Positions 1 to 13,225 of a DNA stretch of 27,066 nt are shown here, piece after piece. The notes under the pieces were generated by a model, which worked only from the letters and a program-made list of their open reading frames with translations, searched no databases and was not told the DNA's origin. Origin of the DNA: a virus. The position numbers and the translations under genes were made by a program. How positions within the stretch are numbered: the stretch's first letter is position 1; each line of letters opens with the position of its first letter. Location: positions 1 to 27,066 of the IMG/VR virus record IMGVR_UViG_3300022562_001373, one strand, 5' to 3'.

Positions 1-1062
1 CTTGTCGCCTGGCATGGTTGCATCGGCTTGCGCCTTAGCAGCCACATAGGCGGCATCGTGTTCCTTGATAACCTTTTGAATACCCGCCTTGATGGTTTGT
101 AGATTTTTTACAATCTCTTCTGGTAGAAGAGGAATCGCATCGTCTTCCTTTTCTAGAAGAATCAACTCCACCATATTACGTGGAGAAGTTGCCAAAGCAT
201 CACGAACCTTGTTGTAAGCAACGTAGGCTGCATTCTTGACCTTAATTCGGTTGAATTGCGAATCTCGAACAACAACACCTTCGTGTTCCATCGGGTTCAA
301 CGTGGATACCCAATCTATAAGTTCTTGCACAGACGTGTACGTGTGTGCCTGTACGAGTGGCAGACAAGTTGGAAGCAAATCAACCACAGGGTGCTTGAAG
401 TCAAGTTCCTGTAGAGTGATTAGTCCACGAACTGCCAGTAAGGTGACACCACTGTTCTTATATTCAACTACAATACGGTTGTATGGAGTTGTCAATTCAA
501 AGCAGTAGGTGTATGCCTTATCCAAGTATCGAGTGAAGACATCAAACTCATAGCCAGTGGTTTCAGTCAATGCCTTTTCGAACAGAGTTCTAAAGGTATA
601 GATACCATTGTCCATCAGCAAATCTGCTTCAGGAACTGAACGTGTTGCCACGCACCACTGGTTAGAAACTGGATCCCAATAGACGATACATAGGGTTCCG
701 TCAAGCTTTTCAAGTATGGCCAGTTTAGGATCCGACCAATTGATATCAGCCGCAGCCCCTTGACCATAGTTAAAGAATCTTTTCATTGGAAAAGCAAGAA
801 TTTGGGTAGCTCCTGCCTTGATATCATCACGACTTAGCTTGCCTTCTGGTGTTGGATTCCAAGGATATGGTTTACCATCCGCAGAAGACAAAATAAGTCC
901 GCGGCATTCTTGAGCCAATGGATCAGACTCTTTCGCTTCAATCTGATCATAGTTTAGTGAGAACTTATAACCAGACTTAGAGAATGAGGCATAGACTCCA
1001 TGTTCACGTGCCAAATCTCCAAACGTATGAGTTTCCAGATATTCCTGGACTAACAACTTCAT
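1..1062 (-). CDS. T4 Rnl1-type RNA ligase (3' end beyond window)
   Basis: ATP-dependent RNA ligase that seals 5'-phosphate to 3'-OH RNA ends through a lysyl-AMP intermediate. The T4 homologue repairs tRNA cut by the host anticodon nuclease PrrC. The 354 visible codons hold the nucleotidyltransferase motifs in order: motif I EKLDGT with the expected AMP-accepting Lys119, an upstream ECRGLIL segment, motif IIIa-like CFELTTPYNRIVVEY near 187-201, motif IV EGVVVRD near 261-267 and motif V RIKVKN near 272-277. These spacings and the CFELTTPYNRIVV segment fit the T4 Rnl1 (PF09511) class rather than Rnl2. T4 Rnl1 is 374 residues, so only the C-terminus should be missing. The ATG lies 1 nt after the stop of the preceding small gene, so it is probably the last visible member of the unit starting with the other RNA ligase at 2287. 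Confidence 0.93.
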   Translation of the reverse strand, partial: MKLLVQEYLETHTFGDLAREHGVYASFSKSGYKFSLNYDQIEAKESDPLAQECRGLILSSADGKPYPWNPTPEGKLSRDDIKAGATQILAFPMKRFFNYGQGAAADINWSDPKLAILEKLDGTLCIVYWDPVSNQWCVATRSVPEADLLMDNGIYTFRTLFEKALTETTGYEFDVFTRYLDKAYTYCFELTTPYNRIVVEYKNSGVTLLAVRGLITLQELDFKHPVVDLLPTCLPLVQAHTYTSVQELIDWVSTLNPMEHEGVVVRDSQFNRIKVKNAAYVAYNKVRDALATSPRNMVELILLEKEDDAIPLLPEEIVKNLQTIKAGIQKVIKEHDAAYVAAKAQADATMPGDK

Positions 1063-1063
1063 C

Positions 1064-1279
1064 TTATTCCTCTTGCTTGTTACGAACGTAAATTGCTCCA
1101 GACATAGTATCACCAACCAGTTTAGCTAGATTGGCTTGCAAAGTTCGCAGTTCTTGCACAGACATATTACGCACCTCGGGTGAGGACATAACTTCCATTA
1201 GACCATCATGCAATGGCTGTAGAACTTTTTTACCCTCTTCAGACAGCCACCCATTCTCCTTAAACATCTTAGTCATCAT
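1064..1279 (-). CDS. Small hypothetical protein (71 aa)
   Basis: Not recognised. A charged, apparently soluble helical protein starting MMTKMFKENG, with a central stretch (VRNMSVQELRTLQANLAKL) that looks amphipathic. Two ATG codons are in tandem; AAGGTG just upstream supports either. It overlaps the end of the membrane-protein gene upstream by 11 nt and stops 1 nt before the Rnl1-type ligase, so translation of the three is probably coupled. Its place between two RNA ligase genes is the only hint of a role. Confidence 0.7.
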   Translation of the reverse strand: MMTKMFKENGWLSEEGKKVLQPLHDGLMEVMSSPEVRNMSVQELRTLQANLAKLVGDTMSGAIYVRNKQEE

Positions 1280-1526
1280 ACACCTTTGTACATAGTAAAG
1301 CTAGAAAACAAATTACAGACGGAACCAATGCCGCCCAACTCATGGTCGTATTTTCCCCGAATGTAATTGCAACTTTATCTGCGCCCTCTACATAGACTCG
1401 GCAAAAAACATAAAGCCCAAACCATCCGGCAAAAAACAATATGCCCTTGAAAAGCCAGCCATCAACGAATAGCTTCCAAAGAACATAGACTGCTAGGAGC
1501 ATCATTACTCCAAACATGATAGCCAT
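1269..1526 (-). CDS. Small membrane protein with about three TM segments (85 aa)
   Basis: Not recognised. The protein is almost wholly hydrophobic: an N-terminal helix (MAIMFGVMMLLAVYVLWKLF), a second helix (KGILFFAGWFGLYVFCRVYV) and a C-terminal helix (MSWAALVPSVICFLALLC) ending in KVYDD, so three transmembrane segments are likely. An in-frame TTG at 1538 lies only 1 nt from AGGAGG, too close for normal initiation. The ATG at 1526 follows AGGAGG by 13 nt and comes 2 nt after the preceding stop, so it is preferred. A membrane protein inside an RNA-ligase unit is unusual; its role cannot be inferred. Confidence 0.7.
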   Translation of the reverse strand: MAIMFGVMMLLAVYVLWKLFVDGWLFKGILFFAGWFGLYVFCRVYVEGADKVAITFGENTTMSWAALVPSVICFLALLCTKVYDD

Positions 1527-1528
1527 AA

Positions 1529-2287
1529 TTATAACCAAGCCTCCTGAACAGTAAGGTTTCGCATTGGAACTCGATCAATTAGATGACTTCCTGAGTTAAT
1601 AATATTCTCAACAAAATCTCGTCGTACATACTTGTAACGACCAACAACTCGCCTATCGTCTTCGTGCTTAATGTAGAGCCCTTCCGATAGACAAGACCTA
1701 TCACATTCCATTAGAGCCTTCTCTAAATCAAGCTGACCTTTCTCAGCCTTCTTCCACAAAAATTCTTGCCAGTGTTCTGATTGGAACAAAGGCTTCTTAA
1801 TTAGATCGGTAAGTTGACTGAGCCTAGTAGGCTTAAGGCTTGCCAAAACAGGTACAGACCGAATATAGTCATGTCCAGATAGCAAGACGCTTCGAGCAAG
1901 CGTAGAAAGCCAAATATTACCCTTGCGATCATACATATCAGATTCAAAGAAATAACACGGTAGCTGGTCATAGAAAATGGTGTGTTTATAGAACATCCAT
2001 TCTCCAAACAGAACGTATCTGTTCTCTAGAAGATCAAATAGTTTATCTTGGTGAGATAAGGCCCAAGAGTGAAGTCGAGCGAACTCTTTACCAGTTGCCG
2101 GGCTTCCTCTGTGCCAAATATGCATCTCCAGTTGGTCATCAAAAAAGATGGAGACGCCAGTGCCGTCCAGCTTTTCTTCGACCACTAGAAATTCACCAGC
2201 CAATTTATTGAATTGCATTACCTCCGGGTCCTTGGGAGAGGACAGGCCGGAGCCTTCAATGTGTAGGGTTCGAGGTAGCTTGATCAT
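1529..2287 (-). CDS. RNA ligase, PF09414 (Rnl2-like superfamily) type
   Basis: Predicted ATP-dependent RNA ligase, 252 aa. Visible nucleotidyltransferase motifs: motif I EEKLDGTG with Lys39 as the expected adenylation site, motif III-like VLFGEWMFYKHTIFYDQLP (92-110) followed by CYFFESDMYD (IIIa), motif IV SEGLYIK (Glu202) and motif V RYKYVRRDF with Lys219. The GEW-KHTIFYD-Y-F-D pattern belongs to the broad RNA_ligase family PF09414 and differs clearly from the Rnl1-type ligase two genes downstream. No separate C-terminal domain is evident beyond about 30 residues after motif V, so it is close to a minimal ligase core. It is the first gene after a promoter and terminator pair, so it leads the transcript that also carries the Rnl1-type enzyme. 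Substrate is unknown; RNA rather than nicked DNA is inferred from family and context. Confidence 0.85.
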   Translation of the reverse strand: MIKLPRTLHIEGSGLSSPKDPEVMQFNKLAGEFLVVEEKLDGTGVSIFFDDQLEMHIWHRGSPATGKEFARLHSWALSHQDKLFDLLENRYVLFGEWMFYKHTIFYDQLPCYFFESDMYDRKGNIWLSTLARSVLLSGHDYIRSVPVLASLKPTRLSQLTDLIKKPLFQSEHWQEFLWKKAEKGQLDLEKALMECDRSCLSEGLYIKHEDDRRVVGRYKYVRRDFVENIINSGSHLIDRVPMRNLTVQEAWL

Positions 2288-2293
2288 GTTACT

Positions 2294-2321
2294 ATCGTAA
2301 TTCTAATAAATAGGGCGTCAA
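2294..2321 (-). promoter_or_regulatory. Sigma-70-like promoter with CCTATTT spacer motif
   Basis: On the minus strand: TTGACG, a 16-nt spacer CCCTATTTATTAGAAT, then TACGAT. The predicted start lies close to the ATG at 2287, giving a very short leader. The spacer resembles those of the promoters at 8712-8739 and 18769-18796 (shared CCTATTT-n-TAGrA), which makes chance occurrence unlikely. It directly follows the terminator at 2332-2356. Confidence 0.65.
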
Positions 2322-2331
2322 GCAACCTATC

Positions 2332-2356
2332 AAAACTCCTCACTTTTTCAGTGAGG
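2332..2356 (-). terminator. Intrinsic terminator at end of the 2340-2876 gene
   Basis: On the minus strand CCTCACT-GAAAA-AGTGAGG forms a perfect 7-bp stem with a 5-nt loop, followed by AGTTTT. The stop codon of the upstream gene is inside the 3' arm. The T-tract is short, so termination may be partial. A promoter follows within about 15 nt, marking a transcription-unit boundary. Confidence 0.6.
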
Positions 2357-2876
2357 CTAATTTAGCTTCAAGGGCTTGAATCTCTTGTTGCTTTACCCAT
2401 TCGTCATACTTTGCCTTTTCAACGAGATAGGCTTGCCAATTCTTCTCATATTGTTCTTGGGCGGCCTTGAATCCCTCGGGATCTGCCTCAAAAGTCTTCC
2501 TGTAAGAGAAGCTTATCTCTTGTCCATAGATACCCATATCTCCAGTGTCAAGGCTCATAGATATCCTAACATCGGATGGTTTAACTCCTTCGGGCAACAT
2601 ATCTAGAATAGTTTGAAGAGTTACTTGTGATAGCTTCGGAAAAGATCCCCTATCTTCTTGCTCATCTTTGGCATCTACACAATCACAATCTAAATACTCG
2701 CCATCTTTGTAGCCCAGCTCTTCATCGCAATATTCACAATATTGTCTATCATCATCGTTACGAAACTTCTCGTAATAACCATAAATGGTCACATCTTCGG
2801 TGCGGGCTTCATAGTCAGAAGCCCAAGGCCGATTGTAATTGTCAGGAAACATATGGTTGATAAATGGTTCTTTCAT
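2340..2876 (-). CDS. Hypothetical protein with Cys cluster and C-terminal coiled coil (178 aa)
   Basis: Not recognised as a named family. The N-terminal part is acidic and carries a compact cysteine cluster (YCEYCDEEL then DCDC), suggesting a small zinc site. The middle reads as beta strands (DVRISMSLDTGDMGIYGQ), and the last 50 residues form a long charged helix with regularly spaced Tyr/Trp/Lys. The strand-then-helix layout resembles the protein at 5886-6221, so the two may be distant paralogues. It overlaps the gene upstream by 4 nt (ATGA) and ends in an intrinsic terminator, so it is the last gene of the PseT-containing unit. Confidence 0.75.
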   Translation of the reverse strand: MKEPFINHMFPDNYNRPWASDYEARTEDVTIYGYYEKFRNDDDRQYCEYCDEELGYKDGEYLDCDCVDAKDEQEDRGSFPKLSQVTLQTILDMLPEGVKPSDVRISMSLDTGDMGIYGQEISFSYRKTFEADPEGFKAAQEQYEKNWQAYLVEKAKYDEWVKQQEIQALEAKLASLKK

Positions 2877-3154
2877 AGTTTTTCCATTGTGAATGTTTCA
2901 AGATGGGTTCGGACTATCTTGCCATCATCATTGGCAATTTCATATATCTTGACAACAAGCTCTCGATGCTCAGGAACATATTCACACTTTCCAACATGAG
3001 TATATTCTCCTGGTAATATTTCAGAGAACCTAGAACCTTTCTTAGGTTTTTTACGAGTAACAAAGAAGGTTGGCATATACGATACTTCGGCATTGTTCAC
3101 CTTCTTTGTTACTACAAAGAAGTTCTTGGGTACTTGTTTCTTTTTGCCGCGCAT
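2873..3154 (-). CDS. Small basic hypothetical protein (93 aa)
   Basis: Not recognised. It begins MRGKKKQVPKNFFVVTKK; the first half is strongly basic and the second looks like alternating strands (ELVVKIYEIANDDGKIVRTHLETF). An ATG at 3184 would overlap the PseT gene by 31 nt. The ATG at 3154 forms a TGATG junction with the PseT stop and has GGAG 7 nt upstream, so it is preferred. Translation is likely coupled to PseT. A nucleic-acid-binding role is possible from the basic N-terminus, but nothing specific supports it. Confidence 0.7.
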   Translation of the reverse strand: MRGKKKQVPKNFFVVTKKVNNAEVSYMPTFFVTRKKPKKGSRFSEILPGEYTHVGKCEYVPEHRELVVKIYEIANDDGKIVRTHLETFTMEKL

Positions 3155-4110
3155 CAGAAATCTCCGGGCGCCACTTGAAAACAAGTAAGTCCCTTATTGC
3201 GCCAGAATTCAACCACTTGATTGCGGTCGTCCAATACACAGAGAACATTATACTTCCCTTCAATGTGTTCTTGATAGATTTCTTCCTTGATGATAGCATC
3301 TTTGCGGAAGTCATCGGTCTTTCTCATATGAAGTTCATATTCCATTTGTGTACAAGCGAACCCATCCTGTTGCACACAGTACTTCTCAATAAACCTAATG
3401 GTCTCTGGTCGGTACTTATCTTCACGCCCTGAACAGAAAATGATCTTACGACCAGCCCTATAATGAGCAAGAACTGTTTCAATGACAGGCCAATTTGGCA
3501 GGTCTTTGATATCACAGTCTTTAGCATCGTATGGGCTTCGGTTATGAATCAAAGCCAGGGTTCCATCCAAATCACACAAGACGGCCGTAGGAAGAGAATC
3601 ATCCCAGGCAGGCGCATCCACAGTAGACTGTAGATTGCCCCTACGCTCCTGATAGATTTCTACACGTGGCTTATAGAATTTGAACTGAGTTTTACCAGAC
3701 TCTTTCCACCACTTCTTGATAACTTCTTCGCCAACCTTGGCCTTACCTTCTCGTTTAGCATCTCGGGCGATAGCCTCTTCCAAATCAATGTAGAAGGCTT
3801 TTTCGAAGACCTGAATGTCTGCATTCACTGACTTAGCAATCTTACAGACATCATCGAAATGACGACGGTTCAAGTTAAGATTGTCAATGATGACATTCTT
3901 CCCGCGCTTCAATGCATCTCGGATAAGATAGTTGCGGGCGTCCGTAACCATCTTTTCATAGTCAGGGCTCCACACGCTACCATTCATCATGGCACGCAAA
4001 TCGTCATTGTTTACTCGAACCCAGTTATTTGGATCCTTGGCAACCACTTGCTTGGCGTAAGTAGACTTACCCGAACCAGGAATACCAACTAACATTTCTA
4101 CTTTAATCAT
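3154..4110 (-). CDS. pseT: Polynucleotide 5'-kinase / 3'-phosphatase, T4 PseT type
   Basis: Bifunctional RNA/DNA end-healing enzyme: phosphorylates 5'-OH ends and removes 3' or 2',3'-cyclic phosphates, preparing ends for Rnl1-type ligation. At 318 aa it is close to T4 Pnkp (301 aa) and in the same domain order. Kinase domain: P-loop GIPGSGKST (9-17), NNDDLR (34-39) matching the T4 catalytic Asp35/Arg38 region, and NVIIDNLNLNRR (72-83). Phosphatase domain: DxDGT at 180-184 (Asp180, Asp182), FCSGRED (225-231) and VLDDR (292-296). All the expected catalytic residues are present. It overlaps the nuclease-like gene upstream by 4 nt and the small basic gene downstream by 1 nt. The likely partner is the Rnl1-type ligase at the left edge, although a transcription boundary lies between them. 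Confidence 0.95.
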   Translation of the reverse strand: MIKVEMLVGIPGSGKSTYAKQVVAKDPNNWVRVNNDDLRAMMNGSVWSPDYEKMVTDARNYLIRDALKRGKNVIIDNLNLNRRHFDDVCKIAKSVNADIQVFEKAFYIDLEEAIARDAKREGKAKVGEEVIKKWWKESGKTQFKFYKPRVEIYQERRGNLQSTVDAPAWDDSLPTAVLCDLDGTLALIHNRSPYDAKDCDIKDLPNWPVIETVLAHYRAGRKIIFCSGREDKYRPETIRFIEKYCVQQDGFACTQMEYELHMRKTDDFRKDAIIKEEIYQEHIEGKYNVLCVLDDRNQVVEFWRNKGLTCFQVAPGDF

Positions 4111-4616
4111 AATTTCTTCTCAATTAACTTCAATAAGTCATCCATAGGATGAAGCTTATTAGTCGGGATGTAATAAACTGGCTTACCATATAAGCCCTCT
4201 TCCCAGTTTATATCTTGTTTAATTTCTTTACCATAAGCCCAGCCAGCGAGAGTAACTTCTGGTAGCCTGTCGGCTTTAACTAGAATATAGGGAGCATTCA
4301 ATTTAACCTTTTCATATTCTCTGACCCATAAGCGACCTTTAGGGTGTTTAGTGCATTTGACTTCCAGCCCTGAGACATCCCCACCAGATTTCCTCCACTC
4401 TAACCAATCTTCAAAAGAAAAATGTTTCCCGTCCCATTCTAATTTCATTATAGAAGAAACGGCTTCCTCACCTATTGCTCCTACCTCATCAGCCGTAAGA
4501 CTATCTATAACTGCACCATCTGGATTAGAAGCTCCTCTGTTAGTAGCATTTCTGGCCAGAGAAACAGATTTAATTCTAGCTAATTGTTCATCAGTAAGAA
4601 TAATAGTCCAATTCAT
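4107..4616 (-). CDS. Putative PD-(D/E)XK-superfamily nuclease
   Basis: A 169-aa protein with a likely restriction-endonuclease-like core: helix with GEEAVSS (Glu50/Glu51), then GGDVSGLEVK giving Asp80 and Glu85-x-Lys87, the D-x(n)-E-x-K signature, followed by strands WVRE and YILVKAD and a conserved-looking LAGWAYGKEI. This is the arrangement of small phage and mobile-element nucleases of the PD-(D/E)XK fold. Target is unknown. It lies between the two kinase-phosphatase genes with 4-nt overlaps on both sides, so it is part of the same operon and could act on the same nucleic acids. It could instead be an inactive or binding-only member of the fold. The call rests on a short motif, so it is moderate. 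Confidence 0.55.
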   Translation of the reverse strand: MNWTIILTDEQLARIKSVSLARNATNRGASNPDGAVIDSLTADEVGAIGEEAVSSIMKLEWDGKHFSFEDWLEWRKSGGDVSGLEVKCTKHPKGRLWVREYEKVKLNAPYILVKADRLPEVTLAGWAYGKEIKQDINWEEGLYGKPVYYIPTNKLHPMDDLLKLIEKKL

Positions 4617-5548
4617 TTGAAAAACTCCGCTTGATCAACGTATTGAATACCGGAGCGTTTTGCAAACGTCTCATCAGTAGTCATATCGCCTACCATAATG
4701 CACTGCTTAGGATCGAGTTTGTACTTGAGCATAAACTCGACAAACACCCCGCTCATAGGTTTACGACAATAACAGGAAATTGGCGCAGACTGATGAGGAC
4801 AGAATCGATATTCAATATCAATTCCAAGCTGTTGATTGGTGTAATCAAATAGCTCACGAGCCGTCTCGTCACTCAATTCGCCCTTGTGAATGCCGCTTTG
4901 ATTAGAGATTCCGAGCAAGATATAACCCTTGTCTTTGTAGGTTTGTAGGACTTTAGTGCGGTTAGGTTTAATTTCGATTTGATCTTTAGAAACAGGAAAC
5001 TTCTCATTCCCACCAATACATTCACGAAGAGTTCCGTCATAATCTACAATCAGTGCTTTGTTAGTAAACTCCGGATTATGTAAACGAGTGAACTTATGCA
5101 CTTCCACCTTGGAGAAACCTTCCTCCACGGTTGGCTTTTGAAACTCTTTCTTATACTTAAACAAGACAGTTGGAGGAAAGATGTTAGTATGCTTAGCGTC
5201 CTTGATAGCCTCTGGTGTTGGGAACTTGCCAATTAGCCCAATGGCTCGCTGAACCACATTAAACTGCGCATCTTCAATAGAAGTGCTCATTAGGGTGCAG
5301 GTAACGACTGCTCCATGCTTCTTAGCTAACTCAATGAAAGGCTTACGAACTTCAATGGTTGGGAATGTGTTATCAAGAACAATGTTCTTACCCTCTTTCA
5401 ACAAAGCTTCCATTTTAGGAAGAAGACCAGCAATGGTACCACCTTCAGTATCTCTATTAAGAGAAATAGCGCCCTTCTTGATCAATTCTTTGGTAACCGT
5501 ACTCTTACCAGAGGCGGGATATCCCACCACCATTTTCACTTCTGACAT
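4613..5548 (-). CDS. P-loop kinase fused to HAD phosphatase, second PNKP-like protein
   Basis: 311 aa. Domain 1 (about 1-155): P-loop kinase with GYPASGKST (9-17), SLNRDT (29-34) and NIVLDNTFPT (55-64), as in polynucleotide kinases. Domain 2 (about 160-311): HAD phosphatase with DYDGTLRE (169-176; Asp169, Asp171), SNQSGI (215-220), a zinc-type CxH...CxC cluster (Cys250, His252, Cys259, Cys261) leading into RKP, and VGDMTTD (286-292). The Cys/His cluster is typical of HisB-N/GmhB-like HADs and is absent from PseT, so this is not a recent duplicate of the neighbouring enzyme. End-healing of RNA or DNA is inferred. The ATG at 5548 has AGGTGA correctly spaced; a GTG at 5557 without a good site is less likely. 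It overlaps the nuclease-like gene downstream by 4 nt. Confidence 0.85.
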   Translation of the reverse strand: MSEVKMVVGYPASGKSTVTKELIKKGAISLNRDTEGGTIAGLLPKMEALLKEGKNIVLDNTFPTIEVRKPFIELAKKHGAVVTCTLMSTSIEDAQFNVVQRAIGLIGKFPTPEAIKDAKHTNIFPPTVLFKYKKEFQKPTVEEGFSKVEVHKFTRLHNPEFTNKALIVDYDGTLRECIGGNEKFPVSKDQIEIKPNRTKVLQTYKDKGYILLGISNQSGIHKGELSDETARELFDYTNQQLGIDIEYRFCPHQSAPISCYCRKPMSGVFVEFMLKYKLDPKQCIMVGDMTTDETFAKRSGIQYVDQAEFFK

Positions 5549-5553
5549 TCTAA

Positions 5554-5889
5554 TCACCTATTAACACACTTAGAGCAAGAACATTCAATTCCATAATATT
5601 TACGCTTACACAATTCTGATTCAACAACCTCAACCGCGGGCTTCGCCTCTGCGGAAAGGTGCATCCCTTCACCATTTTCAAATCTTCTTAGAGTTGAATT
5701 GTAGCTACCATCATAATCGATGTAACCAAGTAAACGGATGTCTATCGGAAATGTATCGTGGGGAGCTACACAATAGAAAATTTCATTCTTCTTTTCTATT
5801 TGCCATGATCCATTAATTACCCACATACCCTCATCAACAAGCAACAGAGATTTGAAATCTGGCCCATAACCGTAGACCGAGTGGCTCAT
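5554..5889 (-). CDS. Hypothetical protein with C-terminal CxCxxC (111 aa)
   Basis: Not recognised. It starts MSHSVYGYGPDF; the body alternates short strands with aromatic and acidic residues (VINGSWQIEKKNEIFYC, LLGYIDYDG), and it ends in a small cysteine cluster, ECSCSKCVNR, that could bind a metal. The ATG at 5889 overlaps the upstream stop as ATGA and has a purine-rich GGAAAAAAGA upstream; a GTG at 5904 is possible but lacks a binding site. It sits 5 nt before the kinase-HAD gene. Confidence 0.7.
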   Translation of the reverse strand: MSHSVYGYGPDFKSLLLVDEGMWVINGSWQIEKKNEIFYCVAPHDTFPIDIRLLGYIDYDGSYNSTLRRFENGEGMHLSAEAKPAVEVVESELCKRKYYGIECSCSKCVNR

Positions 5890-6221
5890 TGTTCTTTTTT
5901 CCACTTTATCAGTTTCTTTTCGTATCTCTTCATCTGTTTTTCATAGATGGGATTATCAATCTTTTCTTCCCAAGTCAATTCCAGTTTTGGAAACGAAGAA
6001 ATCATATTGCCATCCATATCGTAATCATCATCAGAGTATAGTCCCAATCTAACGTTTTTAGCATTAGCTGGGATAGATTTTTTAATCCAAACCAAGAACT
6101 CTTCAACAGTGGCCGAGCCATTTCTAGTGCCCGCCGAATAGTTGTAGCTAAAGGGATAAGAGGCACTATTAGTTATCCATACCTTCTTTAGAGGCTTTCT
6201 TGGTTTAGATAAAGTTTTCAT
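5886..6221 (-). CDS. Hypothetical protein, beta domain plus C-terminal basic helix (111 aa)
   Basis: Not recognised. The N-terminus is basic (KTLSKPRKPLKKVW), followed by NVRLGLYSDDDYDMDGN, which resembles the DVRISMSLDTGDMGIYGQ region of the 178-aa protein at 2340-2876, and a final long Lys/Tyr-rich helix (YEKQMKRYEKKLIKWKKEQ). The similarity in both order and composition suggests the two are distant relatives. It overlaps its neighbours by 4 nt on both sides. Confidence 0.72.
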   Translation of the reverse strand: MKTLSKPRKPLKKVWITNSASYPFSYNYSAGTRNGSATVEEFLVWIKKSIPANAKNVRLGLYSDDDYDMDGNMISSFPKLELTWEEKIDNPIYEKQMKRYEKKLIKWKKEQ

Positions 6222-6598
6222 AACATTGCCATTTCTTTTTCTAGTTCAACTTCGGCCTTTTCCAACTCAGCATTGGAGGCTTCAAGCTGGGCACGTGTGG
6301 CAGCTAAATCAGCAATGCGAGTTTTGTTTTTGACAATTTGTCTGGCCGCTTCTTTTTCAATACGAGAAAAAGTTACTTCATTGGTCTTAGTAAATGGCCA
6401 AATGAAAATCCAGTAGAACGGCCAACAATACGTTGCCCATAATCTTTTGCTTTCATTTACATCCACATTTACATAACAATATCCTATATATTGTCTTTCT
6501 ATGGTTGGTGGCCATTTGTATTTACCATAACCATGGGTTGCGCCGGCCAAAACTATATATAGAATGATCCCAAGTAGAATACTAAGACCAACGAACAT
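6218..6598 (-). CDS. Membrane protein with C-terminal coiled coil (126 aa)
   Basis: Not recognised as a family. The N-terminal hydrophobic helix (VGLSILLGIILYIVLAG) is followed by an aromatic hydrophobic segment (WATYCWPFYWIFIWPF), giving two likely membrane passes or one plus a re-entrant segment. The last 50 residues form a charged coiled coil (QLEASNAELEKAEVELEKEM). It lies immediately downstream of the SPFH gene, and the small TM/coiled-coil protein at 7829-8089 lies immediately upstream of it. These three membrane coiled-coil proteins plausibly form one complex. Confidence 0.72.
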   Translation of the reverse strand: MFVGLSILLGIILYIVLAGATHGYGKYKWPPTIERQYIGYCYVNVDVNESKRLWATYCWPFYWIFIWPFTKTNEVTFSRIEKEAARQIVKNKTRIADLAATRAQLEASNAELEKAEVELEKEMAML

Positions 6599-6605
6599 TA
6601 TTTAC

Positions 6606-7832
6606 TCACTTGTTCAAATCACGGAGAGCCTTGACTGCAATAGCGTCCATTGCCGAAGGCACCGGAGAATGTGAAGTTCCACCTAGGCTGATATCAGGCA
6701 CCTGGCGTTGCTTGCCATAAGCTTCTGCCCAAGCCTTATGAATCTCGACTTCAGCTTCAATCTTCTTGCCTTGATAGTTGTCGGCCTGCATCGCCAATCT
6801 CTTGGCATCCGCTTCTGCCTTAGCCTCTGTCACAGTAGACTGCGCATTCAGCTTAGAAGTTTCTAGCGCCAGAGAAGCAACTTCCTTGTTCTTTTCTGCC
6901 TGAGTAACAGCAACAGCCTTTTCCTGCTCTGCCGCAGTCACAGCCGTTGCCTTCTGAACTTCCTGATCCCACTTTGCCTTAGCGGCAGCCGCCTTACCCT
7001 GTTGTTCCGTAGTAATTGCGTCCTGCTCTGCCTTCTTAGCATTCACGATAGCCTGCTGCACTGCCATGATAGCTTCTTGCTGTTGCTTGATCTGGGCCTC
7101 TACAGTTGGGTCATATTCGATATTGTTAATTGTAATGTTGTTAGCCGTAATACCATACGTTTGGATTGGCGACTCTTCCTCACGGGCTACACCATTCGGA
7201 GCGCCTTCCTTGATCTTTGGAGTCACAATATCAACGATCTTCTCTTGTCCAGTAATTGGATCGATTGTCTTACCTTGCTGGTGCTCAGTTCGGTAAACAC
7301 CATAGAGAATCTGATCGGTCATAAAGTTAATGAGGTCAGCTCGCTTTTCAGCATAAGACTCTCGGCTACTCATCAATGGACCGCTCATATAAACCCCTTT
7401 GTTGACCACCTGCTGAATCAACTCATGAGTGATAGAGTCCATAGAGTGGAAAGTCTTGTGAATCTCTAGCATCTTCTTCGGATCAGTGGGAAGACTGTAT
7501 CGAAGTGAGCCTGAGATATTTCCGTGTCCACCATCATTGAATCTCACCTTGATAGATTCATCTACCTTCTTACCTTCATCTACACGATTGGAGAACCAGA
7601 ATTGTGCGCTTCGCTTATAGCGAGTAAGTGTACCGAAATTCTCCCAGTGAACACCCGGCGTATCCCAAACATGTAGTTCTCCGCCAATCACATCCTGCTT
7701 GACTACGATTTCGTCAGCATCAACGGTGCAAACCATATTAGAAATAAGAACTAATCCTACAACCAATACTGCTACACCAAGACCAAGCTTAACCAATAAG
7801 CTAGCTATAGATCCTGCATCCTTAGTTTTCAT
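6606..7832 (-). CDS. SPFH/band-7 (prohibitin-like) membrane protein
   Basis: A 408-aa membrane-anchored scaffold protein. One N-terminal transmembrane helix (about 12-32, LLVKLGLGVAVLVVGLVLI) is followed by an SPFH domain with the usual opening (VDADEIVVKQDVIGGELHVWDTPGVHW, 37-63) and RYKRSAQFWFSN. From about 235 to 350 there is a long Ala/Glu/Gln/Lys-rich helix (KAEQDAITTEQQGKAAAAKAK and continuing) like the coiled-coil extension of prohibitins and stomatins, then a short loop-rich tail. SPFH proteins oligomerise at membranes and gather or protect other membrane proteins; prohibitins and HflK/C modulate FtsH-type proteases. In a phage the target is unknown. It is flanked on both sides by small membrane coiled-coil genes (4-nt overlap with the upstream one). 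Confidence 0.9.
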   Translation of the reverse strand: MKTKDAGSIASLLVKLGLGVAVLVVGLVLISNMVCTVDADEIVVKQDVIGGELHVWDTPGVHWENFGTLTRYKRSAQFWFSNRVDEGKKVDESIKVRFNDGGHGNISGSLRYSLPTDPKKMLEIHKTFHSMDSITHELIQQVVNKGVYMSGPLMSSRESYAEKRADLINFMTDQILYGVYRTEHQQGKTIDPITGQEKIVDIVTPKIKEGAPNGVAREEESPIQTYGITANNITINNIEYDPTVEAQIKQQQEAIMAVQQAIVNAKKAEQDAITTEQQGKAAAAKAKWDQEVQKATAVTAAEQEKAVAVTQAEKNKEVASLALETSKLNAQSTVTEAKAEADAKRLAMQADNYQGKKIEAEVEIHKAWAEAYGKQRQVPDISLGGTSHSPVPSAMDAIAVKALRDLNK

Positions 7833-8089
7833 CTACGTTTCTCCTGTTTATTATCATCTTCCTGATCTTGTAAGGCTTCATTATACATTTGACTGTAAAG
7901 TTTTTCGCGTTCCTTTTCCAGGCGAGCCGCTTCAACTTCTAATCGTGTTTGTTCAAGTCTTTCACGCGCTTCATCCAACGGATTCTTTTTCTCCGGGATT
8001 AAACGCCTGACCAACTTGTATAATGGAATACCAATAAGAAATATACTGCTAGCTAACAGTAGCAGCAGCAAAATCTGTTCGAGCCACAT
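7829..8089 (-). CDS. Single-pass membrane protein with coiled coil (86 aa)
   Basis: The N-terminal hydrophobic helix (QILLLLLLASSIFLIGIPLY) is followed by a basic patch (KLVRRLIPEKK) and a strongly charged heptad-like helix (DEARERLEQTRLEVEAARLEK). The positive patch after the helix predicts the coiled coil on the cytoplasmic side. Its ATGA overlap with the SPFH gene suggests co-translation; by analogy it could assemble with the SPFH coiled coil. No named family recognised. Confidence 0.8.
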   Translation of the reverse strand: MWLEQILLLLLLASSIFLIGIPLYKLVRRLIPEKKNPLDEARERLEQTRLEVEAARLEKEREKLYSQMYNEALQDQEDDNKQEKRR

Positions 8090-8098
8090 ATGTTTTCC

Positions 8099-8299
8099 TC
8101 AATTCGAATAAGTGAGCGGGAAGTCTTTTACAATTCCTTCTGTAATTATTTCCCAGTCGTCGGCCATTAAATCCTCTAGTCTAAATGGAATTCCATGAAG
8201 ACCGGCAGCGTCTATCCAATCATTGGCAAGGCCCGACATATCTGGGCGCCTAATTCTATAACCTTGAGCCATATACTTAGCAGCAGTATGAATATCCAT
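8099..8299 (-). CDS. Small DUF2829/Tad2-like protein (66 aa)
   Basis: The protein has the two ends of the DUF2829 pattern: an N-terminal helix followed by GYRIRRPDM (cf. the usual ALxxGxxVxRxxW) and a C-terminal EDLMADDWEII (cf. the usual LxxxDxxAxDWEV). DUF2829 includes Tad2, which sequesters the cyclic nucleotide signal of Thoeris defence. This copy is shorter than typical Tad2 proteins (about 80-110 aa) because the middle strands are reduced, so ligand binding cannot be assumed. GGTGA lies just before the ATG. It follows the trxA terminator and is 9 nt from the next membrane gene. Many phages carry unassigned proteins with the ADDWE ending, so the family call is moderate and the function is inference. 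Confidence 0.5.
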   Translation of the reverse strand: MDIHTAAKYMAQGYRIRRPDMSGLANDWIDAAGLHGIPFRLEDLMADDWEIITEGIVKDFPLTYSN

Positions 8300-8308
8300 A
8301 ATTCACCA

Positions 8309-8332
8309 AATAAAAAGCCAGCAAGCGCCGGC
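8309..8332 (-). terminator. Intrinsic terminator downstream of trxA
   Basis: On the minus strand GCCGGC-GCTT-GCTGGC forms a 6-bp stem (one G-T wobble) with a 4-nt loop, followed directly by TTTTTATTT. It lies between the trxA stop and the Tad2-like gene. Confidence 0.75.
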
Positions 8333-8338
8333 CCTCAT

Positions 8339-8366
8339 TTCATATTAAATTGTAACTTATAATCAA
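8339..8366 (-). promoter_or_regulatory. Weak candidate promoter between trxA and its terminator
   Basis: TTGATT, a 16-nt spacer, then TATGAA on the minus strand. It has the same spacing as the stronger promoters in the window but lacks the CCTATTT spacer motif. If used, its transcript would begin at or just before the hairpin at 8317-8332. Listed because genes downstream of the terminator otherwise have no visible promoter. Confidence 0.25.
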
Positions 8367-8367
8367 G

Positions 8368-8694
8368 TTATCCAGTTTTGGTCATAACAAAATTGTTAAT
8401 CTCTGCTAAAGAGGTTAAACCAACTTTAGAACCAACAGACTTACCACCATCGAAAAGCATCAAAGTTGGGACTCCACGAATGCCAAGCTTTGAGGCAACA
8501 ACTGGAGCATCATCGATGTCCACCGAAACAACCTTAACCTTATCTTGGTTTTCGGTTGCGAACTTTTCGACGATAGGCATCTGTCTCTGACAAGGTCCAC
8601 ACCATGCAGCACCAAAGTCAACTAAAACTGGCACTTCAGATTGTAGAACTTCAGATTCAAAATTATTATCATCTACATTAACAACATTACTCAT
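8368..8694 (-). CDS. trxA: Thioredoxin
   Basis: A full-length thioredoxin (108 aa), the same size as bacterial TrxA. It has the redox motif WCGPC (31-35), the preceding VLVDFGAAW strand, the cis-proline loop GVPT (Pro76) and the DGG turn. It would reduce protein disulfides in the cytoplasm using host thioredoxin reductase; phage thioredoxins commonly feed ribonucleotide reductase, although none is present here. It stands alone between its own promoter and a terminator, so it is the only clearly monocistronic unit in the window. The ATG has GAGG 7 nt upstream. Confidence 0.97.
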   Translation of the reverse strand: MSNVVNVDDNNFESEVLQSEVPVLVDFGAAWCGPCQRQMPIVEKFATENQDKVKVVSVDIDDAPVVASKLGIRGVPTLMLFDGGKSVGSKVGLTSLAEINNFVMTKTG

Positions 8695-8711
8695 TATAGC
8701 CTCGCAATAAG

Positions 8712-8739
8712 AACATAAATCCTATAAAATAGGTGTCAA
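8712..8739 (-). promoter_or_regulatory. Promoter of trxA with palindromic spacer
   Basis: On the minus strand: TTGACA, 16-nt spacer CCTATTTTATAGGATT, then TATGTT. The spacer contains the dyad CCTAT-ttt-ATAGG. It starts 10 nt beyond the stop of the MoxR gene at 8749-9855. Similar spacers occur at 2294-2321 and 18769-18796. Confidence 0.8.
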
Positions 8740-8748
8740 GGGGCGCCT

Positions 8749-9855
8749 TCACTTCTTGAACGTAACGTTTTCGCTTAGCTTGGTAAAGAGATCGAAAAAG
8801 GGCTTGCAAGTATACAACTTGTGGGCTCTAATCATATCAAAATCAAAAGAGTTATGTAATCCCATAACTTGGACTTCTGACTCCACTTTACATAGACGGA
8901 AAAAGTTACATAGGTTCTCTAGATATGCGAATTTATGCTTTGATTTGTCTTTTATAACCTTCTGTTTTGCATAATAACATGCAGAGACTACAAAGACTAC
9001 TTTCTCCGTTGGAACTAGGTCTTCGTAATTGAGAGACATCTCGCCACGGTCAATTAGTGAATGAACGTGAGGCTCAAATCTTCGATAATGCTCGTACCAA
9101 ATTTTGAACCTCAAACCCGCCTCACTCCCGACATAACCGGAGATGATTTGGGTGACCGAATCTATATCAGTCATCTTAAGGTCCTTAGCTTTTATTAAAG
9201 CGTTAGAGGCCCATGTCCAACTTCTAGGCGAAGGTGAGGCAAAAACTGAATCTTCTATTTTACCACATGCAAACGAAGGATCACTTCTCAAAAAACCTAA
9301 GATTAAATCGTGTATCTGATGCGCCTTGGCCCAATCTACCCATCTTTCAAAATTAAACTGCAAAATGAACTTGGCGCCTCTGTCTAAAAGGGCAGAACTG
9401 ATTTCTTCAGAATGGGCTCTTTCATTTGCTAAATTGCCGGTCAATATACAAGAAGCGGCGTTAATAGGAATGCCGTTGATTTTTTTGAATAACAGAATTT
9501 CCAATAAAGGGGCCTGAACCTCAGGCTGAGCCTTATCTACCTCGTCAAAAAGAAGAATACTATCCGGCTTAGTATTGGGCTTAAGTTTAGGCAAAAAATA
9601 AGGAGACTTGAAATTAATCACGTCTCCCGGCGTATTCATATCAGGATATCCCGCTAAGTCTGGCCTTTCGATTACACTAAGATTAACATAGTTGATCTTA
9701 TAACCACATTCTTTAGCCGCCTGTATTGCAATATCTGTTTTGCCAACACCTCGTCTCCCGAATAAGAAAAGATTGTGCCCAGACTGGATAAAAAATTTTG
9801 TTAGATTAAGTGCTTGTTCTTGATCTATTTCTTGTAGATTGAGAGAATTCGACAT
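8749..9855 (-). CDS. MoxR-type AAA+ ATPase (second copy)
   Basis: A 368-aa MoxR-family AAA+ ATPase: Walker A GRRGVGKT (33-40), RPDLAGYPD (64-72), Walker B ILLFDEVDK (100-108), sensor-1 LTGN (138-141), arginine-finger LLDR (156-159) and sensor-2 region SPSPRSW (207-213). MoxR ATPases usually act as chaperones with a VWA-domain partner to activate or remodel a target. Its paralogue at 22829-23950 lies directly upstream of a VWA protein; this copy has none nearby and instead follows a large helical protein (9896-10828). The C-terminal 100 residues differ strongly from the paralogue, suggesting a different client. It is the last gene of the long unit from the rIIA promoter. Confidence 0.9.
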   Translation of the reverse strand: MSNSLNLQEIDQEQALNLTKFFIQSGHNLFLFGRRGVGKTDIAIQAAKECGYKINYVNLSVIERPDLAGYPDMNTPGDVINFKSPYFLPKLKPNTKPDSILLFDEVDKAQPEVQAPLLEILLFKKINGIPINAASCILTGNLANERAHSEEISSALLDRGAKFILQFNFERWVDWAKAHQIHDLILGFLRSDPSFACGKIEDSVFASPSPRSWTWASNALIKAKDLKMTDIDSVTQIISGYVGSEAGLRFKIWYEHYRRFEPHVHSLIDRGEMSLNYEDLVPTEKVVFVVSACYYAKQKVIKDKSKHKFAYLENLCNFFRLCKVESEVQVMGLHNSFDFDMIRAHKLYTCKPFFDLFTKLSENVTFKK

Positions 9856-9863
9856 GTTTCCCT

Positions 9864-9898
9864 TGAGATATCACATAATCATATAACATGTGATCTCA
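9864..9898 (-). other. Intergenic hairpin spanning stop and upstream of RBS
   Basis: On the minus strand TGAGATCACAT and ATGTGATATCTCA pair over 11 bp with a 2-nt AT bulge and a loop of about 11 nt. The upstream gene's stop codon is in the 5' arm and the AAGGG ribosome site of the MoxR gene follows the 3' arm. There is no T-tract, so it is not an intrinsic terminator; an mRNA processing or translation-control element is possible. Confidence 0.4.
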
Positions 9899-10828
9899 CA
9901 TAAAGGGAACAAGATGTTTCACTTCTGGATGATTTTTATACAAAGCAAAAAACTTATCAATCAATAATTGATCTTTAGATTTAACAATACTTCGTAATAC
10001 TTCTTTCTTATTCTTATTTGATCCTAATGTTAGGAGGTATTCCCATTGTTCTTCTTGTTCAGCCCTTTTGAAGAGCTTGTCAATAATGTTAGGAATAGAT
10101 CCGCTTCGAATTTTGAGAATACTATTAAGTATGGAGGCACTGGCTATTTCAGATATAGGAATATTTGTATTGCCTAGTGCAATAGCAAACTGATCTTGTT
10201 CGCCATCTTTATAGAGGCTGTCCTCTAAGGAAAGCTGAAAGTTACCGCTTGTCCAATCAAAAGCACTAGCAAAGACCGGACTATCACTTTGCAAAGCTCG
10301 AACCAGTACCAAGTACTGATCTGATGCCTCTAAGTCGGCCATAATTATGGTAGAATTCCGCTTAGGCTCAAAACTCTCTTCCATTATCTGAAGAATTAAA
10401 GAATGTTTATTAATTCCAGTAAATGGACCAATCTTATCTGCTACTTGAAGTATATCTTTCGTTTTTGCGTATCTTAATTCTTCAAGAACTCCTTTTAGGA
10501 CGTGCCTTTCAACACGAGTATCATGTTTGTACATGAATTGGAATTGGTCAAAATTTTCATCATCCCTAATCATTTTAGAGGCTAGCCGCTTATTGATATT
10601 CTTACTAAAACGATGAGTATCTATAGAGCGCTCAAAATAATAAGCCAAATTCAATAATCGTTCTGGATGAATATTATTTTCTAATCTTTTGACTAGATAG
10701 CTCTCTAGCAAGGGAGCATACACATTATCATTTTCTAACAATTTATATAGAGGCTTGAGATTACGATCTGGACAATATTCTACCTCAAGCTCTTTAAGAA
10801 GAGCCTCAAATTTTGAAATCTTAAACAT
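9896..10828 (-). CDS. Large alpha-helical protein with HPEV-LVPF tail (310 aa)
   Basis: Not recognised. Starts MFKISKFEALLKELEVEY and is predicted by composition to be almost entirely helical, with short repeated helix pairs that suggest a solenoid. The last 23 residues (LIDKFFALYKNHPEVKHLVPFM) closely resemble the end of the 342-aa protein at 13445-14473 and more weakly the end of the 157-aa protein at 20605-21078. A TTG at 10861 would place the first 11 residues inside the Fe-S carrier gene; the ATG at 10828, 2 nt after that gene's stop, is preferred. It is directly upstream of the second MoxR gene, so it may be the client or adaptor of that ATPase (inference from order only). Confidence 0.75.
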   Translation of the reverse strand: MFKISKFEALLKELEVEYCPDRNLKPLYKLLENDNVYAPLLESYLVKRLENNIHPERLLNLAYYFERSIDTHRFSKNINKRLASKMIRDDENFDQFQFMYKHDTRVERHVLKGVLEELRYAKTKDILQVADKIGPFTGINKHSLILQIMEESFEPKRNSTIIMADLEASDQYLVLVRALQSDSPVFASAFDWTSGNFQLSLEDSLYKDGEQDQFAIALGNTNIPISEIASASILNSILKIRSGSIPNIIDKLFKRAEQEEQWEYLLTLGSNKNKKEVLRSIVKSKDQLLIDKFFALYKNHPEVKHLVPFM

Positions 10829-10830
10829 GA

Positions 10831-11166
10831 TTATACTGTAAATGAATGTCCGCAGCCACAAGTAGATTTTTCGTTAGGATTAACGAACTTGAAACCCTGT
10901 CGCATTAGGGTTTGCTCCCAATCTAATATAGCTCCATTAAGATATACTAAACTTCTTTTGTCTACGATAATTTTTACGTTATGGTGATGAAAAACCTCAT
11001 CTTTATCTCTTGGCGGATTATCTTCAAATTGAATAACGTAACTGAATCCGGAACAACCGCCGCCTTTGACACCTAAACGTAAAGCGGCATTGGGAGTACC
11101 ACGGTCTTGTAATTGCTGCTTAATTTTTTCAGCAGCTATTTCGGAAACAAATACCGTGTACTCCAT
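10831..11166 (-). CDS. A-type iron-sulfur carrier (IscA/ErpA/SufA-like), copy 1
   Basis: A 111-aa protein of the HesB/IscA family that accepts and delivers Fe-S clusters. The three ligand cysteines are present: GGGCSGFSY with Cys38 and STCGCGHSF with Cys103 and Cys105. The length and the GFKFVNPN segment before the last cysteines fit ErpA/IscA exactly. No scaffold (IscU), desulfurase or other assembly gene is in the window, so it would work with host machinery. A second member lies at 12890-13225. It differs in the N-terminal half (IAAEKIKQQLQDRGTPNAAL), so the two are divergent rather than a fresh duplicate. Confidence 0.93.
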   Translation of the reverse strand: MEYTVFVSEIAAEKIKQQLQDRGTPNAALRLGVKGGGCSGFSYVIQFEDNPPRDKDEVFHHHNVKIIVDKRSLVYLNGAILDWEQTLMRQGFKFVNPNEKSTCGCGHSFTV

Positions 11167-11180
11167 AATTCAATACCAAA

Positions 11181-11747
11181 TTATACGCCTCTAAACTTTT
11201 TCAGCGTGTGAATGAAAACATTAGCAATATTGCGGGCATCATCTACTCCACGGTGATGTGTGCCCTCTAGTTTCATTCCTAGATAATCTAGGGCGTTGTC
11301 TAGTCCCGGTTCACGCTCTAACCCATGGAGCAGGGTGAAAGAATTTTTAAGGTTCATGTGGCGCGGCCCGAAAGGATATTTCACGCCATAGTCTCGGCTA
11401 TTCCTTTCAAACATCTTACGGTCATAGTCGCCCCAGCTAATAAAAGTACGATTCTCAGAGTCATAATTCTTACGAAGGATAGCCATAGCCGCCTCGAAAG
11501 TTACGCCCTGATTAACATACTCTTGTGTCAGAGTCGTTAGCTTGGTACAAAACTTGCTTACCTTAGACTTTTGCGGTCTAATGATAATACTTTCGTTTTC
11601 TTTGATTTGTAGATCATTGATGTTAACAACTGCAATGCCAATTTCGATAATCTCAGAGATTTCGTTCTTAGGCTGAAACTCAGGTGGTTCCCAGCAGGTG
11701 CTCTCTACATCAATTACTAGTACGTTGGGGTCGAGTGTTCTCGGCAT
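11181..11747 (-). CDS. DEDDh 3'-5' exonuclease, ERI1/KapD-like
   Basis: A 188-aa RNase-T/DnaQ-fold exonuclease. The four acidic residues and general-base His are visible: VIDVEST (Asp13, Glu15), WGDYDRKMF (Asp109), and HHRGVDDARNIA (His165, Asp170). The opening VIDVESTCWEPP and the SWGDYD segment are typical of the ERI1/3'hExo/KapD branch, whose members trim RNA 3' ends, rather than of polymerase proofreading subunits. A strong AAAGGAGG lies upstream of the ATG. Its position next to the RlaP-type nucleotidyltransferase makes a role in trimming damaged RNA ends plausible, but that is inference. Confidence 0.85.
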   Translation of the reverse strand: MPRTLDPNVLVIDVESTCWEPPEFQPKNEISEIIEIGIAVVNINDLQIKENESIIIRPQKSKVSKFCTKLTTLTQEYVNQGVTFEAAMAILRKNYDSENRTFISWGDYDRKMFERNSRDYGVKYPFGPRHMNLKNSFTLLHGLEREPGLDNALDYLGMKLEGTHHRGVDDARNIANVFIHTLKKFRGV

Positions 11748-11762
11748 AATCCCCTCCTTTAA

Positions 11763-12881
11763 TTATTTGTATTGTTCTTTTAAAGACTGCTCCACCAGCT
11801 TAATACAAAGTTGATCCAACTTTTCCTTGTCAGGAACTTTTGGCAACACAGTACTGGTGACGTACAATTCGTTGAGTTCTTTTTCCTCACGATCAGCGAA
11901 TTCAATCAACTGCTCATAAGTCCAGGCCCCGTTACGAATGTCCAGTAACTCTTGGAAGTCTGGTCGCTTTACAATCACCTTGCCAGTAGTAAGAATCTCT
12001 CGACACATACGAATGAGTCTTACTAAGTGGTAAGCGTGTTTGGTATCGTACCCATACTTCTCTTCCAAGGCAGCACGAGCGGGGTTACGAGTTTTCTTCC
12101 AGTTTTGATACTGGTCCCATTCTCGTTTAGCTCCGGCATATTCTCGCTCAAGTTGCATTAGATGAATGAAGTTATCGTCCAATCCAATCTTACGAGCCGC
12201 TGCCATCCAGTGTTGGTCTGAGGTGATTTTCAACTCGGCCAACATTTCAGAGACCGTACTACGAAGACCAACCTTCGCTGATTCTTCCATACCTTCCATG
12301 AAATCAAACTGGAATCGATCCAGCTCTTTCTGAATTTCAGCCTGAGCAGCCATAAGCTGATCACTAGGGATCAAAGTCTGTTCAGGAAGCCCCATGCTCG
12401 CCCTAGTAGGAGGAATAGAAGGAGGATTCATGATCCAACGCTTATGAGTTTTGATTCGCTTAAGCTGTGCAACTGAGTAGCCCATAAAGGTAAACTTGAT
12501 CTTTTTGGACAAGAAGTCATTCTTGTGTTCCAAGATAGTCTTACCAATATCAGATACAATAAAGTGATCTGATGGATCAGTGTGCAAAACCTCAATGATG
12601 TTAGGGTTACAATCAGCGGCTAGATTAAAGAACTTTCTGATGTCATAGATAACAGCATCAGGATCAGGAGCCTTCAATTCAGCTTGCTCAAAGCGATACA
12701 TAGTGCCCAAGAAATACTTCTTAGGAGGAATCGCAATACCTTTAAAGTCCTCATCAGAGGTGGCTGTGTTGGTTCCGTAAGCGTGAGAGCCATGGCGCAC
12801 CAACAGTACGGTGTTGTCCTGAATCCAGCTCATATGCGGGCTTCGTTTGATAATAGTGTCTAATACGTGGTGCTTGCTCAT
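11763..12881 (-). CDS. RlaP-type nucleotidyltransferase (RNA-repair pol-beta family)
   Basis: 372 aa. The N-terminal domain carries the pol-beta nucleotidyltransferase signature GSHAYGTNTATSDEDFKGI, with metal-binding Asp43 and Asp45 and a probable third carboxylate at Asp79 (VIYDIRKF), followed by the family-typical NPNIIEVLH. The rest is helical with HAYHLVRLIRMCREIL, also typical. This matches the COG3541/PF10127 family named RlaP, proposed from genomic linkage to RNA ligases as an RNA-repair nucleotidyltransferase; its substrate has not been established as far as I know. In this window it fits with the ligases and kinase-phosphatases, though it is in a different transcription unit, next to an ERI1-like exonuclease. 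Confidence 0.88.
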   Translation of the reverse strand: MSKHHVLDTIIKRSPHMSWIQDNTVLLVRHGSHAYGTNTATSDEDFKGIAIPPKKYFLGTMYRFEQAELKAPDPDAVIYDIRKFFNLAADCNPNIIEVLHTDPSDHFIVSDIGKTILEHKNDFLSKKIKFTFMGYSVAQLKRIKTHKRWIMNPPSIPPTRASMGLPEQTLIPSDQLMAAQAEIQKELDRFQFDFMEGMEESAKVGLRSTVSEMLAELKITSDQHWMAAARKIGLDDNFIHLMQLEREYAGAKREWDQYQNWKKTRNPARAALEEKYGYDTKHAYHLVRLIRMCREILTTGKVIVKRPDFQELLDIRNGAWTYEQLIEFADREEKELNELYVTSTVLPKVPDKEKLDQLCIKLVEQSLKEQYK

Positions 12882-12889
12882 AACTTACC

Positions 12890-13225
12890 TCAAAAAGAAA
12901 CAGAATTGCCACAACCACATGAACCGGTGACATTAGGATTTAGAAATTTGAATCCAGCTCCAAATGGAGAGTCAACCCAGTCGATTGTAGTATCCTCTAG
13001 ATATTGAAGAGACAGCGGGTCTATAACTAGTTTGATAGTTCCATAATAATCAGTAACCTCTACTGTCTCATCCATATCTGATACTTGATCATCAAAAAAC
13101 ATATCATAAGTGAATCCGGCACAACCGCCACCAATAACTCGGGCGCGGACACTATAATGCCCAATACCTTCGCTTTCAGAAAGCTCCTTGATTTTTAAGG
13201 CTGCCTTTTCAGTAATTTGAATCAT
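12890..13225 (-). CDS. A-type iron-sulfur carrier (IscA/ErpA/SufA-like), copy 2
   Basis: 111 aa, same family and length as the gene at 10831-11166. Ligand cysteines are conserved: GGGCAGFTY with Cys35 and GSCGCGNSVSF with Cys103 and Cys105; the GFKFLNPN segment precedes them. The N-terminal MIQITEKAALKIKEL is the standard HesB/IscA opening, so this copy is the more canonical of the two. It overlaps the small acidic gene upstream by 4 nt (ATGA) and ends 8 nt before the RlaP gene. Which Fe-S protein the pair serves is not visible here. Confidence 0.93.
   Translation of the reverse strand: MIQITEKAALKIKELSESEGIGHYSVRARVIGGGCAGFTYDMFFDDQVSDMDETVEVTDYYGTIKLVIDPLSLQYLEDTTIDWVDSPFGAGFKFLNPNVTGSCGCGNSVSF

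Follow-up and report, generated by a model that had tools for sequence, protein, structure and literature searches.

We analysed a 27,066-base fragment of an IMG/VR record (IMGVR_UViG_3300022562_001373; the whole stretch is hereafter the window), which comes from a large uncultured bacterial virus, and find that it probably represents part of a conserved island for the healing and sealing of RNA ends in a lineage of huge tailed phages, with a core made up of RlaP, a Pnkp1/PseT-type kinase-phosphatase, an Rnl1-type ligase and one or two Rnl2-type ligases. RNA-repair islands of this type have been described before; this one is genuine and conserved, and its single odd member is a second protein that joins a kinase to a HAD phosphatase (the second kinase-HAD). 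This protein is the only unusual part of the island and also the weak point of the original prediction. The evidence comprises gene content, intact motifs, synteny among relatives, and the modelled folds of the Rnl2-type ligase and the second kinase-HAD. All six genes of the repair set lie on the minus strand (Table 1), and the catalytic motifs are intact in each of the six proteins and conserved in relatives wherever these were aligned. Pfam profile searches upheld each of the six gene assignments in the original prediction, a note composed from the letters of this DNA. The first 13 kb of the window has no near relative at the DNA level among named phages (megablast).

Table 1. Features of the window, with the repair set and its immediate neighbour first
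Feature	Coordinates	Strand	Matches and remarks
Rnl1-type RNA ligase (T4 gp63/RnlA family)	1..1062	minus	PF09511 4e-14, PHROG 562 4e-34; 3' end lost at contig end
Small Rnl2-type RNA ligase, nucleotidyltransferase domain only	1529..2287	minus	PF09414 5e-23
Pnkp1/PseT-type 5'-kinase/3'-phosphatase	3154..4110	minus	HAD_PNKP PF25109 1e-49, AAA_33 5e-20
Possible PD-(D/E)XK-like protein	4107..4616	minus	PHROG 18407 (unknown) 8e-18; GE..GD..EVK read by eye
Second kinase-HAD (PNKP-like kinase, HisB/GmhB-like phosphatase)	4613..5548	minus	AAA_33 5e-12, HAD/PNK3P (1e-7 level)
DEDDh 3'-5' exonuclease, KapD/ERI1-like	11181..11747	minus	PF00929 5e-18; motifs DVES/HRGVDD
RlaP-family Pol-beta nucleotidyltransferase	11763..12881	minus	PF10127 2e-17, PHROG 388 4e-67
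Two A-type iron-sulphur carriers	10831-11166, 12890-13225		PF01521
Two MoxR-like ATPases and a VWA/DUF2201 metallopeptidase-like protein	8749-9855, 21079-22788, 22829-23950
Phage adenylosuccinate synthetase	14486-15670		GDEGKG retained
Tandem class-I aminoacyl-tRNA synthetases (Trp/Tyr type)	24355-25722, 25840-26799		PF00579

The Pnkp1/PseT-type protein consists of a P-loop kinase followed by a HAD_PNKP phosphatase with DxDGT, SGR and DDR motifs, and its nearest relative in the PDB is Pnkp1 of the bacterial Pnkp1-Rnl-Hen1 RNA-repair complex. The Rnl1-type ligase scores 53 bits against PF09511 (curated cut-off 28.3), retains motifs I (K119LDG), IV (EGVV261) and V (KVK274), and has T4 Rnl1 (2c5u, 3e-5) as its best PDB match. 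Because the Rnl1 proteins of relatives are about 400-430 residues long, approximately the last 60 residues of the window copy, which is truncated by the contig end, are missing; the region of the C-terminal helical domain, the part concerned with tRNA specificity, falls beyond that end.

The smaller ligase scores 82.7 bits against PF09414 (cut-off 27), and its residues K39LDG, GE96W and E202G are invariant in an alignment of 16 sequences. PF18043, the C-terminal domain present in T4 Rnl2, is absent from this 252-residue protein, and phmmer gave no sequence match to it in the PDB. An AlphaFold2 (AF2) model made from 16 sequences (mean predicted local distance difference test score, pLDDT, 88) has Naegleria Rnl, archaeal Rnl and T4 Rnl2 and Rnl1 as its top PDB folds. 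The original prediction had allowed that this protein might fall in a DNA-specific or metabolic family; by both profile and fold it is RNA-ligase-like, and identification as a DNA ligase was rejected, well-characterised DNA ligases standing far below RNA ligases in the structure list. Relatives carry another ATP-dependent RNA ligase, the third, about 3 kb beyond Rnl1 and outside the window contig; it is also of Rnl2 type but only 22-26% identical to the window's. It is followed in many of them by a calcineurin-like phosphatase, and this adjoining metallophosphatase weakly resembles the phosphatase portion of a PHROG akin to bacterial Pnkp, a point in favour of RNA repair. Between Rnl1 and the third ligase, ten relatives also conserve a protein of about 240 residues with an apparent helical repeat (L005:15618-16331), for which no family match was found.

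The RlaP homologue exceeds the PF10127 cut-off of 23 bits with a score of 64, carries the motif GSHAYG..SDED, and has G31, S32, Y35, G36, D43 and D45 invariant across 14 sequences; a phmmer search of the PDB with this protein gave no useful match. In 10 of 13 syntenic relatives it is adjoined by the DEDDh exonuclease, which the original prediction had called ERI1-like. That name holds in part, human ERI1 being the nearest protein in the PDB (6e-16) but bacterial KapD the nearest NCBIfam model (3e-29). The iron-sulphur carriers flank this pair of genes, and the order carrier, RlaP, exonuclease, carrier is kept in several relatives; the first MoxR ATPase accompanies RlaP throughout the clade.

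Co-occurrence of the genes in relatives, which the original prediction had proposed as a check, was borne out. At least 13 contigs of huge phages (L003-L005, L007-L011, L013, L014 and L174-L176) share one gene order, RlaP, second kinase-HAD, Pnkp1, Rnl1, spread over about 8-12 kb. The third ligase follows Rnl1 in 12 of these 13, and the window's own Rnl2-type ligase sits between Pnkp1 and Rnl1 in seven. Whole-record searches showed that every one of 14 contigs encodes RlaP, that 12 have PF09414 ligases (as many as five copies) and that 11 contain a PF25109 match; PF09511 passed its threshold in nine, and tblastn and hidden Markov models (HMMs) also detected Rnl1 in some of the remaining contigs. 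RtcB, considered as a further member of the island, was set aside, being present in only two of the 14 records. Linkage extends beyond close relatives. A scan of viral contigs for RlaP returned 79 loci. At 11 of them (L136, L137, L147, L151, L155, L157, L161, L162, L170, L172 and L173) the encoded RlaP is only 43-50% identical to that of the window, and Pnkp1 and/or ligase genes nevertheless lie no more than 10 kb away. Because linkage persists at these divergent loci as well as within the clade, the view that RlaP, Pnkp1 and the ligases form a working unit is supported.

Healing and sealing of RNA, for example tRNA, is very probably the function of the core of RlaP, Pnkp1 and ligases. Judging by the families to which the proteins belong, host ribonucleases would cut tRNA, or other RNA, leaving 2',3'-cyclic phosphate and 5'-OH ends; Pnkp1 would strip the 3' phosphate and phosphorylate the 5' end; and Rnl1 or an Rnl2-type ligase would seal the healed ends. 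Two further steps may be optional: restoration of a lost nucleotide by RlaP and trimming of 3' ends by the KapD/ERI1-type exonuclease. The second kinase-HAD would be an accessory, perhaps acting on another type of end. The individual activities, the order of the steps, the tRNA substrate and any role in countering host defence are all predictions by analogy with known members of these families. In line with an RNA-repair role, relatives are rich in tRNA matches, with 65 in a record of 267 kb, 56 in one of 481 kb and 58 in one of 447 kb.

The second kinase-HAD has an intact P-loop and DxDGT motif, and its start at ATG 5548, as originally predicted, agrees with the relatives more closely than a start at the GTG 5557 further upstream. 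Its kinase half matches mammalian PNKP (1yj5/3zvl) at 2e-22 in a phmmer search of the PDB but T4 Pnkp only at 0.09, and it is specifically PNKP-like, down to the motifs NRD and DNTxP..R. In NCBIfam the kinase matches TIGR01663 (2e-24) and the HAD half TIGR01662 (1e-19); the protein falls well short of the full-length TIGR01663 cut-off (85.7 versus 502.8 bits), and its order is kinase then phosphatase, not phosphatase then kinase. Foldseek with an AF2 model (pLDDT 92) returned mammalian PNKP as the best match for the kinase and HisB-N/GmhB for the phosphatase. A CxH..CxC loop, typical of HisB-N/GmhB, lies beside the RKP motif; all aligned relatives except L019 retain it, with minor variation, and the aligned mouse PNKP lacks it. 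In two contigs, L016 and L017 (10001-10932), apparently from one population, a frame change splits the kinase from the phosphatase half, which may be natural or an artefact of assembly.

This family is nearly absent from the annotated phage collection searched, yet it recurs in contigs of huge phages, which makes its substrate a testable question. A first scan found it in 18 viral contigs of up to 482 kb and an alignment-based scan at 62 loci, while tblastn matched nine records of that collection, of which just two, both uncultured genomes, matched along most of the protein. The gene is part of the RNA-repair island in 13 contigs. Of 32 non-redundant distant loci, five have RlaP within 3 kb, all from one subclade of the kinase-HAD tree; three others have a ligase match within 10 kb and one a weak RlaP match. 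Neither RNA- nor DNA-repair families were enriched among 125 proteins encoded near the distant relatives, where the top tallies were metallophosphatase (four) and phosphoribosyl pyrophosphate (PRPP) synthetase (three); a 2H phosphoesterase, a NADAR protein, KptA and RlaP each occurred as single neighbours. Cellular relatives are scarce among the genomes searched. One scan of bacterial genomes identified a full-length relative in a metagenome-assembled genome (MAG) of Planctomycetota (47%), one partial relative and, in Anabaena, a weak match to the kinase alone that adjoins Thg1 and a bacterial Pnkp. Within the phylum to which the MAG belongs, only three of 392 genomes gave strong matches, two of them as fusions to an aldo/keto reductase (L220:1495-3558 and L221:59-2062).

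The original prediction treated this protein as a second RNA-repair enzyme and named a DNA-specific or metabolic affiliation as the finding that would count against it. The outcome is mixed: the gene belongs to the conserved island, but its kinase resembles that of the mammalian DNA-repair enzyme, its HAD half resembles HisB/GmhB, it is missing from some syntenic islands, and in distant phages it is usually unlinked to RNA repair. The substrate could thus be RNA, DNA or a small molecule, with evidence pulling in different directions. It is conceivable, though doubtful, that the second kinase-HAD (and perhaps the exonuclease too) repairs DNA ends in the manner of mammalian PNKP and lies beside RNA-repair genes incidentally. 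The closeness of its kinase to mammalian PNKP in sequence, fold and NCBIfam profile, set against the marginal match to T4 Pnkp, fits this, as do its absence from four otherwise syntenic islands (L102, L104, L116 and L148) and the 23 of 32 distant loci with neither RlaP nor a ligase within 10 kb. However, no DNA ligase or DNA end-repair family is prominent among the 125 neighbours, neighbours elsewhere include the 2H phosphoesterase and the NADAR protein, and the gene recurs inside the RNA-repair island and close to RlaP in five distant phages. A metabolic enzyme acting on small molecules as kinase and phosphatase would accord with the HisB-N/GmhB-type HAD half and its loop, with the reductase fusions in two bacterial genomes from the phylum of the nearest cellular relative, and with PRPP synthetase and NAPRTase genes among distant neighbours; the specifically PNKP-like kinase motifs and the repeated proximity to RlaP make it unlikely, and PNKP's own phosphatase domain shares a HAD subfamily with HisB/GmhB. 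We tentatively suggest, as a possibility of about the same standing as DNA-end repair, that the second kinase-HAD is a distinct end-healing class of huge phages, in which a PNKP-like kinase is joined in the T4 order to a HisB/GmhB-type phosphatase with a Cys/His loop, and which gives the phage an additional healing specificity, such as one for ends refractory to Pnkp1/PseT.

Several points weigh against ascribing the island to RNA repair. No tRNA or Rfam RNA was found within the 27-kb window. The synteny among relatives partly reflects common descent, and because unrelated neighbours (the iron-sulphur carriers, the MoxR ATPase, a thioredoxin and a Band 7 protein) are conserved too, location alone does not define a pathway. 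The ligases could process phage RNAs instead of answering a host nuclease; more broadly, the ligases and healing enzymes might serve phage RNAs or virion assembly, as in the attachment of tail fibres by Rnl1. T4 RnlA has both roles according to the note in the T4 record, and PHROG 562 bears that name, but no tail genes were recognised in the window and the co-location of the ligases with Pnkp1 and RlaP fits repair better, so that we consider this improbable. With repair of RNA as the favoured role, the compact candidate set of RlaP, two kinase-phosphatases, two to three ligases and an exonuclease would allow the proposed nucleotide-restoring role of RlaP and the question of multiple ligases to be tested side by side.

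Other genes of the window lie outside this set. The possible PD-(D/E)XK-like protein sits between the two kinase-HAD genes and overlaps both by a few bases, but viral contigs gave only one identical copy and it was rejected as a member of the island. Other, unrelated inserts occupy the same site in relatives, including one with TnsA-like and NUMOD3 matches (L009:10302-11120). The tandem synthetases comprise one full tyrosyl-tRNA synthetase with an S4 domain and a shorter protein without a recognised S4. The name of PHROG 1211, to which the adenylosuccinate synthetase belongs, denotes a 2-aminoadenine enzyme; identification as PurZ was rejected, the NCBIfam PurA model matching at 2e-113 and PurZ at 2e-40.

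Among known systems, the closest in content is T4, which already has a kinase-phosphatase (pseT), Rnl1 (rnlA), an Rnl2-type ligase (rnlB) and a PF10127 RlaP (nrdC.11, 5e-12). The original prediction had described the set as enlarged over a T4 baseline of one ligase and one kinase-phosphatase; because T4 holds two RNA ligases and RlaP in addition to PseT, that enlargement is smaller than stated: the set visibly exceeds T4 by the second kinase-HAD and perhaps the exonuclease, and in relatives by a third ligase. Unlike the island, the T4 repair genes are scattered, and T4 Rnl2 has its extra C-terminal domain; a second PNKP-type kinase-HAD is unannotated in the T4 stretches examined, and tblastn listed no T4 record. 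Mammalian PNKP shares with the second kinase-HAD 32% identity over the kinase fold, but the phage protein places the kinase first, has no recognised FHA domain, and carries the HisB/GmhB-type loop in its phosphatase. The bacterial Pnkp1-Rnl-Hen1 complex (PMC4411300) supplies the nearest solved relative of the window's Pnkp1, but the window yielded no recognisable Hen1 methyltransferase, and its ligases are of Rnl1 and Rnl2 type. Jumbo phages, in the portion of the account of Iyer et al. 2021 (PMC7824862) drawn on here, carry any combination of Rnl1, Rnl2 and RtcB together with PNK-HAD proteins, and XacN1 has three paralogous Rnl2 ligases; RlaP tracks the RNA ligases, the ligases are argued to be non-redundant, and a role for these families in RNA repair is predicted. 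That redundancy implies separate substrates, as the original prediction proposed, is thus a plausible, putative suggestion already stated for the jumbo-phage ligases, whereas a compact syntenic island with two different kinase-HADs is not described in that portion of the account.

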